Below, in pieces: positions 688 to 2,741 of a stretch of 46,261 nt of DNA. The translations under genes were made by a program, and so were the position numbers. Source of the stretch: Patescibacteria group bacterium (lineage in GTDB: Bacteria > Patescibacteriota > Patescibacteriia > Patescibacteriales > GWC2-42-12); contig JAQVNC010000005.1 of the NCBI GenBank assembly GCA_028703305.1, forward strand, positions 1-46,261, in the 5' to 3' direction. Numbering within the stretch: position 1 is the stretch's first letter; each line of letters begins with the position of its first letter. The notes below the pieces were generated by a model. It saw only the letters and a program-made list of their open reading frames with translations. It ran no database searches and was not told the origin of the DNA.

Positions 688-840
688 TTAATGAACAAAA
701 AAGGCGCTTTTTTTATTGCCAGGATTATGGCGCAGATTATGCAGACAGGCCAATCTGGTCGCCTGCTCTTTCCCTTGTTTTTCAAGTTGCTTGAGTTTTG
801 CCTGAAAATCAACTTCCCGATTATTATTTTTCTCCGCCAT
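688..840 (-). CDS. hypothetical small protein (50 aa, MAEKNNNREVDFQAKLKQLEKQ…)
   Basis: ORF with SD GGAGGGAG before ATG at 840; third gene of the small operon. Confidence 0.6.
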   Translation of the reverse strand: MAEKNNNREVDFQAKLKQLEKQGKEQATRLACLHNLRHNPGNKKSAFFVH

Positions 841-869: not shown

Positions 870-1055
870 TTATGCCAGCCATACTGTTTTTGAATTAAGC
901 CGCCGCTCTATCTTTTCCCTGGCACTAAGCGTCTCAATAAGCGGGTGTGTGACTATTAGCGACCCGCCCTTAGCATGTTTTACCTCTTTAACTTCTGGCA
1001 GATTGCCTAGCAGTTGCTCTGCCTCTGATTTCGGAATATCTGACATTAGTTCCAT
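870..1055 (-). CDS. hypothetical small protein (61 aa, MELMSDIPKSEAEQLLGNLPEV…)
   Basis: ORF with SD GGGGAGGAG 8 nt before ATG. Confidence 0.6.
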   Translation of the reverse strand: MELMSDIPKSEAEQLLGNLPEVKEVKHAKGGSLIVTHPLIETLSAREKIERRLNSKTVWLA

Positions 1056-1087: not shown

Positions 1088-1357
1088 TTAACCTTCTACG
1101 TTAGGCCAAATCTGTAATACCCTGTCCTTGCCATAATGATCAAGCAACTGTTGATGCGCCTTTCCGGCATCAGCATCAGTATCTCTAAGCTGAGCTAAAG
1201 TGCCGTCTTTTCCTTCATAAATCCTCCTTATTTCATCCACGCCGACTAACATATTCGGCGCGATGACCGTAGCCACTTTCTCGGGAGAAACTCCTTTTAT
1301 CATAACGACAACCAATTTTTCCCAAGTAATCTCTCTTCCCCAAATAGCTTTTTTCAT
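1088..1357 (-). CDS. hypothetical small protein (89 aa, MKKAIWGREITWEKLVVVMIKG…)
   Basis: ORF with SD AAGGAGG; first gene after attenuator A. Confidence 0.65.
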   Translation of the reverse strand: MKKAIWGREITWEKLVVVMIKGVSPEKVATVIAPNMLVGVDEIRRIYEGKDGTLAQLRDTDADAGKAHQQLLDHYGKDRVLQIWPNVEG

Positions 1358-1450: not shown

Positions 1451-1469
1451 TTTTTTTAAAGAACTAAAC

Positions 1470-1507
1470 AAAAATAAAACCGACTCTCCTTTCGGAGAGC
1501 CGGTTCA
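1470..1507 (-). terminator. attenuator terminator A
   Basis: AACCGGCTCTCC-GAAA-GGAGAGTCGGTTTTATTTTTG, 12-bp stem with GNRA-type tetraloop, located upstream of the 1088-1357 gene. Confidence 0.8.
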
Positions 1508-1534
1508 TTTTCCCTAGTGAGTCTTAACTTATGA

Positions 1535-1630
1535 TCAACTAGTTAAAACACCACAAAAAACCGCTCTCCGTGAGAGAAAATAAAAGTAAAAGTAAAAGCT
1601 GAAAACGGTTTTTTGTATTGTCTTAATCAT
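1535..1630 (-). CDS. Phe/Tyr-rich leader peptide MIKTIQKTVFSFYFYFYFLSRRAVFCGVLTS
   Basis: Manual translation; 8 of 9 residues at positions 10-18 are F or Y; lies between promoter and terminator A; codons 21-25 contain a copy of the terminator 3' arm. Confidence 0.75.
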   Translation of the reverse strand: MIKTIQKTVFSFYFYFYFLSRRAVFCGVLTS

Positions 1631-1666
1631 AGTTGTTAATAAAGGTAATATTACTACCTGTGGATA

Positions 1667-1694
1667 ATTATAGCAAATATTAAATAAAAATCAA
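1667..1694 (-). promoter_or_regulatory. promoter of locus A
   Basis: TTGATT-N16-TATAAT. Confidence 0.7.
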
Positions 1695-2089: not shown

Positions 2090-2123
2090 ATCAAAAAACC
2101 GCCCTGGTTTAGGGTGGCTTTTT
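2090..2123 (-). terminator. attenuator terminator B
   Basis: AAAAGCCACCCT-aaacc-AGGGCGGTTTTTT upstream of the 84-aa gene. Confidence 0.8.
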
Positions 2124-2152
2124 ATATTTTAACTTATTTTTATTTATCTTTT

Positions 2153-2236
2153 TTAAGCCGCCCTGAAACCAATAGCGATAATGCCATTAATAATAATGGT
2201 TTGGCTGATTATGGTTTGTTTGGCGCTTAAATTCAT
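2153..2236 (-). CDS. Ile-rich leader peptide MNLSAKQTIISQTIIINGIIAIGFRAA
   Basis: Manual translation; 8 Ile in 27 codons; ATG 9 nt after a TATAAT -10; 3' end contains a copy of the terminator 3' arm. Confidence 0.75.
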   Translation of the reverse strand: MNLSAKQTIISQTIIINGIIAIGFRAA

Positions 2237-2601: not shown

Positions 2602-2634
2602 ACAAAAAAGCCACCCGTTTTTAAGGGTGGCTTT
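2602..2634 (-). terminator. attenuator terminator C
   Basis: AAAGCCACCC-ttaaaaac-GGGTGGCTTTTTT upstream of the 80-aa gene. Confidence 0.85.
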
Positions 2635-2657
2635 ACTATGTAATCTTACTAAACTAT

Positions 2658-2741
2658 TTAGGACATACGCGAACAAGCCACCCGATAAGGTAGTAACAAC
2701 AATAGACCCAATAATAAGCTTTTGTTTATGGCTTGTATCAT
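2658..2741 (-). CDS. Leu-rich leader peptide MIQAINKSLLLGLLLLLPYRVACSRMS
   Basis: Manual translation; 8 of 9 residues at positions 9-17 are Leu; ATG 9 nt after a TAAAAT -10; codons 20-22 contain a copy of the terminator 3' arm. Confidence 0.8.
   Translation of the reverse strand: MIQAINKSLLLGLLLLLPYRVACSRMS

Follow-up and report, generated by a model that had tools for sequence, protein, structure and literature searches.

Locus A lies on the minus strand of the window, the whole stretch of 46,261 nucleotides analysed here. Its promoter (1667..1694; TTGATT-16-TATAAT with an extended -10), identified by promoter scan, is kept 5' of the leaders of relatives. A perfect DnaA-box 9-mer, TTATCCACA, recognised as a consensus match at 1659..1667, adjoins the -10 box. 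The leader ORF of 31 aa, MIKTIQKTVFSFYFYFYFLSRRAVFCGVLTS, found at 1535..1630, lacks a Shine-Dalgarno sequence and is conserved in frame in relatives; its regulatory codons, read from the ORF at 1577..1603 as FSFYFYFYF, are those of Phe and Tyr only. Four RNA segments can be delimited. Segment 1 (1601..1626; fold and covariation) corresponds to the leader start and is a partner of segment 2 (1541..1570; pairing and covariation), which lies within the end of the leader ORF and can also pair with segment 3 (1494..1530; pairing and covariation). Segments 2 and 3 form an antiterminator, and the 3' end of segment 3 forms a terminator with segment 4 (1467..1489; terminator scan and covariation), which consists of the 3' arm and the U tract. 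The terminator stem-loop (1506-1477; terminator scan) has 12 pairs, one being G-U, and ends in the U tract. The leader RNA folds better than its shuffled counterparts (z = -7.0, 0/200 shuffles as good). Downstream follow three ORFs with good Shine-Dalgarno sites, hereafter orphan genes: P0002 of 89 aa (1088..1357), P0003 of 61 aa (870..1055) and P0004 of 50 aa (688..840).

The first-pass annotation had already described a Phe/Tyr leader with alternative segments, encoded by what on the plus strand appears as an AAAAGT repeat, and all of this is indeed present on the minus strand, with the codons at 1603-1577. It had also predicted three downstream genes of these lengths. The relations it gave between segments are exact: its segment 1, GGAGAGCGGTTTT (1569 on), is a copy of terminator arm GGAGAGTCGGTTTT (1489-1476), and AACCGGCTCTCC can pair with either. 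What it missed is the segment at the leader start. Since this pairs with the segment it had numbered 1, the switch has four segments and its predicted default, when untranslated, is termination. Locus A hence presents a regulatory-codon leader ORF, a 3:4 terminator, a 2:3 antiterminator and a 1:2 hairpin over the codons.

Two further transcription units of the same design are located upstream on the same strand. Locus B has an Ile-rich leader ORF, MNLSAKQTIISQTIIINGIIAIGFRAA (2153..2236), with an orthologue in same-genus genome G003, a terminator with one internal A-C mismatch (2092..2124) and an orphan gene of 84 aa, P0005 (1795..2049). Locus C has a Leu-rich leader ORF, MIQAINKSLLLGLLLLLPYRVACSRMS (2658..2741), a terminator found by the scan (2605..2637) and an orphan gene of 80 aa with Cys motifs, P0006 (2325..2567). 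The genome is that of a groundwater-type Patescibacterium (925 kb, 98% complete) with kinship to Candidatus Falkowbacteria; the best named relative of a neighbouring adenylate-kinase-like gene is on Falkowbacteria contig JACQYU010000078 (86% identity), which belongs to same-genus genome G001. Elsewhere on the minus strand, 280-640 may encode a structured noncoding RNA of about 300 nt with paired ends, which has short conserved stretches in G003, G006, G011 and G030 and no Rfam match.

Leader family across the order

A tblastn search (E<1e-3) of 111 genomes from a single Patescibacteria order, relatives of Falkowbacteria, matched the locus A leader in 32. The pattern KT..KT-[FYW]-rich-RRxVFCGVLT is conserved in 30 leaders, with MIKTxQKT and RRxVFCGVLT as their ends. 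Phe occurs in all 30 (4-9 each), Tyr in 27 and Trp in 17. Since the aromatic leaders of relatives often hold Trp too, what the class senses is probably aromatic amino acids as a group, not Phe and Tyr alone. Drift of the tract out of frame, which the first-pass annotation had named as a refutation of its reading, was looked for among relatives, and the tract is in frame in 30/30 genomes read. When 389 genomes of the class were searched with a profile, strong matches were confined to the order, with two weak class-level matches outside it (G262 and G437). Leaders built in the same way, whether aromatic, Leu or Ile/Val, occupy the syntenic place in other families of the order.

An attenuator scanner was applied that combines a short ORF containing a run of one residue class with a segment pairing to the terminator 5' arm. 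In 393 kb of attenuator-bearing loci, both strands included, it identified 60 attenuators, versus 0 in three dinucleotide shuffles each. By class these are 34 aromatic, 13 Ile/Val, 12 Leu, 1 Asn and 0 other. A sample of 149 kb of other stretches from the window's own genome yielded no further attenuator. That the tract is a simple AAAAGT repeat on the plus strand could suggest AT-rich low-complexity sequence with chance pairing and no leader peptide, but the contrast of 60 with 0, the in-frame conservation and the covariation described below already refute this, and we give it practically no credence.

None of the 60 leader ORFs has a Shine-Dalgarno sequence. Where a promoter can be recognised, the majority of Leu and Ile/Val leaders begin 7-14 nt past the -10 box, which suggests that many leader mRNAs are leaderless. 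An Rfam search gave no T-box riboswitch match at locus A up to E=5. A match to BTnc231, with 30.8 bits versus a cut-off of 80.4, was taken as chance. The literature searched contained nothing joining attenuation, leader peptides and Patescibacteria; we consider the order-wide family of amino-acid attenuators genuine and, as far as that literature shows, new to Patescibacteria. The Asn attenuator, in G021 (L166 oriented 4881), has leader MNNNNNNWLKTGFFSCVKK followed by orphan genes of 57 and 78 aa. Tandem aromatic attenuators occur in G082, G079, G025 and G040 (L170 oriented 4004, 4194, 5109; L174, L178, L175), and include Tyr-rich leaders such as MQNKIIKKQNKYYYYGYEWQPVFCFA.

RNA helices and the proposed switch

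Covariation was analysed in 28 aligned aromatic attenuators, with controls that leave some effect of relatedness in the counts that follow. In the terminator helix 93.4% of cells are paired, compensatory changes occur in 9/12 pairs and double-change cells number 49 as compared to 18.8 upon shuffling. The 1:2 helix has 92.6% of cells paired, compensatory changes in 11/25 pairs and 38 double-change cells versus 9.4. For the 2:3 antiterminator 83.6% of cells are paired, against at most 60.5% when the segments are slid, with 30 double-change cells versus 16.9; for this helix the excess over shuffles is limited to three measures, namely cells paired, double-change cells and the covariation score. 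Pairing energies of native partners beat those of swaps between genomes, with 0/10000 permutations as good for 2:3. In segments 2 and 3, conservation in part exceeds what pairing alone requires. That three overlapping helices keep their pairs despite changes is a requirement of a switch.

A ribosome-mediated switch with these helices would sense charged tRNA-Phe and tRNA-Tyr at locus A. Translation of the leader to its stop would place the ribosome over segment 2, the 3:4 terminator would form and transcription would end. An untranslated leader would adopt the 1:2 plus 3:4 form, with the same outcome. A ribosome stalled at the Phe/Tyr codons would cover segment 1, by which 2:3 could pair and the three ORFs would be transcribed. 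Small, fast-changing proteins would thus be induced upon aromatic starvation. The interpretation given in the first-pass annotation is largely right, and attenuation by an aromatic leader peptide has strong support from leader conservation, covariation and the genes found downstream in relatives.

The design is that of the pheA/trp-type attenuators of enterobacteria (Rfam Phe_leader, RF01859), with a short regulatory-codon ORF, the 1:2, 2:3 and 3:4 pairings and a U-tract terminator, and in relatives the switch precedes aromatic biosynthesis genes, as it does there. Locus A scores 21.0 bits with the Phe_leader model, under its cut-off of 55. Loci B and C, with their Ile and Leu runs, similarly share the design of ilvL- and leuL-type attenuators.

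Genes behind the leaders

In all ten leader genomes that encode a DAHP synthase (PF00793) or prephenate dehydratase (PF00800), at least one such gene follows the leader on its strand, no more than 1.4 kb away. DAHP synthase is found behind the aromatic leader in G006, G034, G015 and G045, prephenate dehydratase in G029, G033, G051, G055, G056 and G057, in several cases followed by genes that we labelled TyrA-like and aminotransferase-like by sequence inspection. In G017 a DeoC/LacD-family aldolase follows the aromatic leader, and may catalyse the first shikimate-route step in its archaeal-type version. LeuA/HMGL genes are located behind Leu leaders in G014, G044, G045, G046, G056 and G057 and behind an Ile leader in G021. 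Leader codons hence agree with the genes behind them, since aromatic leaders precede DAHP synthase or prephenate dehydratase and Leu or Ile leaders precede LeuA/HMGL. The three genes behind locus A are orphans, but the switch itself appears to belong to the order's regulon for aromatic biosynthesis. A Leu attenuator in G017 (L021 2857-3279) is followed by a gene that comprises only the LeuA allosteric domain (PF08502); a family search of that genome gave no HMGL-like match.

The window's genome (G000) has no match to PF00793, PF00800 or PF00682 (HMGL-like/LeuA), while E. coli and other controls were positive. The searches for aromatic biosynthesis covered PF00793 and PF00800, and for these two families the lineage appears to have lost its aromatic biosynthesis genes. 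Loci B and C, which in relatives have counterparts before LeuA/HMGL-type genes, here precede orphan genes, as does locus A.

Behind nearly all attenuators, including those that precede enzymes, come one to three ORFs of 40-140 aa that have strong Shine-Dalgarno sequences, and in intact operons small ORFs are found between leader and enzymes. Cysteine makes up 2.4-4.0% of their residues versus 0.8% in long ORFs. Some of these ORFs group into families shared between genera, at least two in number: one, short and named "GN", has members in eight or nine genomes, and the other, zinc-ribbon-like, in three. P0002 has no homologue in 194 relatives, P0005 and P0006 have none in 60 relatives each, and neither P0002 nor P0006 has one in viral contigs. 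The orphan proteins match no Pfam, NCBIfam, PHROGs or credible PADLOC family. P0005 and its positional counterpart in G003, encoded behind the orthologue of the Ile leader, are possibly remote homologues: BLASTP gave no match and local alignment gave a shuffle p of 0.004. The window's five orphan ORFs lack detectable relatives and their codon usage is inseparable from that of spurious ORFs; their status as putative genes is suggested by position, by analogy and by their Shine-Dalgarno sites. It would be most economical to regard the small proteins as starvation-induced. We also considered whether a protein encoded behind a leader is poor in the residue that the leader senses. This was rejected, since aromatic depletion is not class-specific: aromatics make up 6.2% of residues behind aromatic, 5.0% behind Leu and 8.0% behind Ile/Val leaders, versus 9.3% in long ORFs.

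The absence of the three enzyme families, together with orphan ORFs that lack homologues and show weak codon usage, raises the question whether locus A is a relic, i.e. an attenuator that mechanically works but has lost its target, with downstream ORFs that are drifting or noncoding and a switch that is being lost. Same-genus G001 (L039 4960-5160) has a decayed copy: promoter, segment 3 and terminator are kept but the leader is broken, with its start lost, an in-frame TAA and most aromatic codons gone. In addition, the leader of G008 is intact, yet no convincing ORF lies within 700 nt. The decayed copy is, however, the one without a gene behind it, as no gene lies between it and the syntenic tRNA-Pro, which in the window likewise comes next. 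Three different attenuators, for aromatics, Ile and Leu, are intact in the window's genome, each before small orphan ORFs, and small ORFs both recur as families and occur inside intact enzyme operons. Moreover, no difference is seen between the 23 attenuators whose genomes lack the two enzymes and the 10 whose genomes have them: the median is 8 aromatic codons in both groups and p values for pairing energies are 0.17-1.0, in comparisons uncorrected for phylogeny. We consider a relic unlikely. As the leader of G001 decayed where no gene follows and attenuators elsewhere are intact, we read the pattern as selection acting on what the switch controls, with G008 as the exception.

Between the window's genome, G000, and G003, of the same genus, the attenuator DNA is 83% identical and the next 430 nt are unalignable. 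Combined with the excess conservation in segments 2 and 3, this could mean that the leader transcript or peptide is a product acting in trans and that the downstream genes are incidental. The Sinorhizobium trp leader peptide peTrpL, which is reported to act in trans (PMC7298713), would be a precedent. The adjoining aromatic enzymes in all ten genomes that have them argue for control in cis, and the decay of the G001 leader ORF in front of no gene also speaks against a product of its own, by which we deem this explanation improbable.

We are confident that locus A represents an attenuator of the classical kind, with four segments and mediated by the ribosome, that belongs to the order-wide aromatic family and was retained on small genes after loss of the enzymes. 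Unlike pheA/trp-type attenuators, locus A is followed by small orphans instead of enzymes. What is further unusual is that the family mixes Phe, Tyr and Trp in the leaders of relatives, that the leader ORF has no Shine-Dalgarno sequence, that a perfect DnaA-box 9-mer occurs at the promoter and that the switch is kept on fast-changing genes upon loss of the pathway. How Patescibacteria regulate their genes has been little studied. A regulon that spans an order and has a predicted signal would indicate which amino acids these reduced cells monitor, would assign an induction condition to small proteins otherwise beyond annotation and would form an example of a regulatory RNA outliving its pathway.

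DnaA boxes at aromatic promoters

The 9-mer TTATCCACA perfectly matches the DnaA-box consensus TTWTNCACA, as given in PMC10989985, and sits against the -10 box as TATAATTATCCACA. The consensus is found within 110 nt 5' of the leader at 25/30 aromatic loci as compared to 4/26 Leu, Ile or Asn leaders, with 0.02 expected from background. At most aromatic attenuator promoters (L119-L148) the 9-mer directly adjoins the -10 box; by inspection a second, inverted copy is present 31-32 nt upstream, flanking the promoter, in G017, G033, G035, G045 and G052. The window's genome encodes DnaA (G000:C37 near 54689-55165) and has only 15 copies of the perfect 9-mer, mostly intergenic. DnaA is a candidate regulator of the aromatic attenuator promoters.

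Attenuation of the E. coli his operon has been linked to DnaA, via boxes with mismatches that were proposed to act in the leader RNA (PMC10989985). Both systems combine an amino-acid attenuator with nearby DnaA boxes, but here a perfect 9-mer adjoins the -10 box of aromatic promoters, by which a putative action of DnaA would more likely be at the DNA level. We tentatively suggest, as a scenario somewhat less probable than its negation, that auxotrophic Patescibacteria, having lost the pathways, kept attenuators as conserved starvation sensors for rapidly exchanged small proteins, to which DnaA, or another protein that recognises its site, would add control by replication state at the aromatic promoter. 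The link between DnaA and amino acids becomes directly testable in this way. Two perfect DnaA boxes, 20 nt apart and about 13 kb from dnaA, were also observed at G000:C37:42013-42041, a candidate replication origin.
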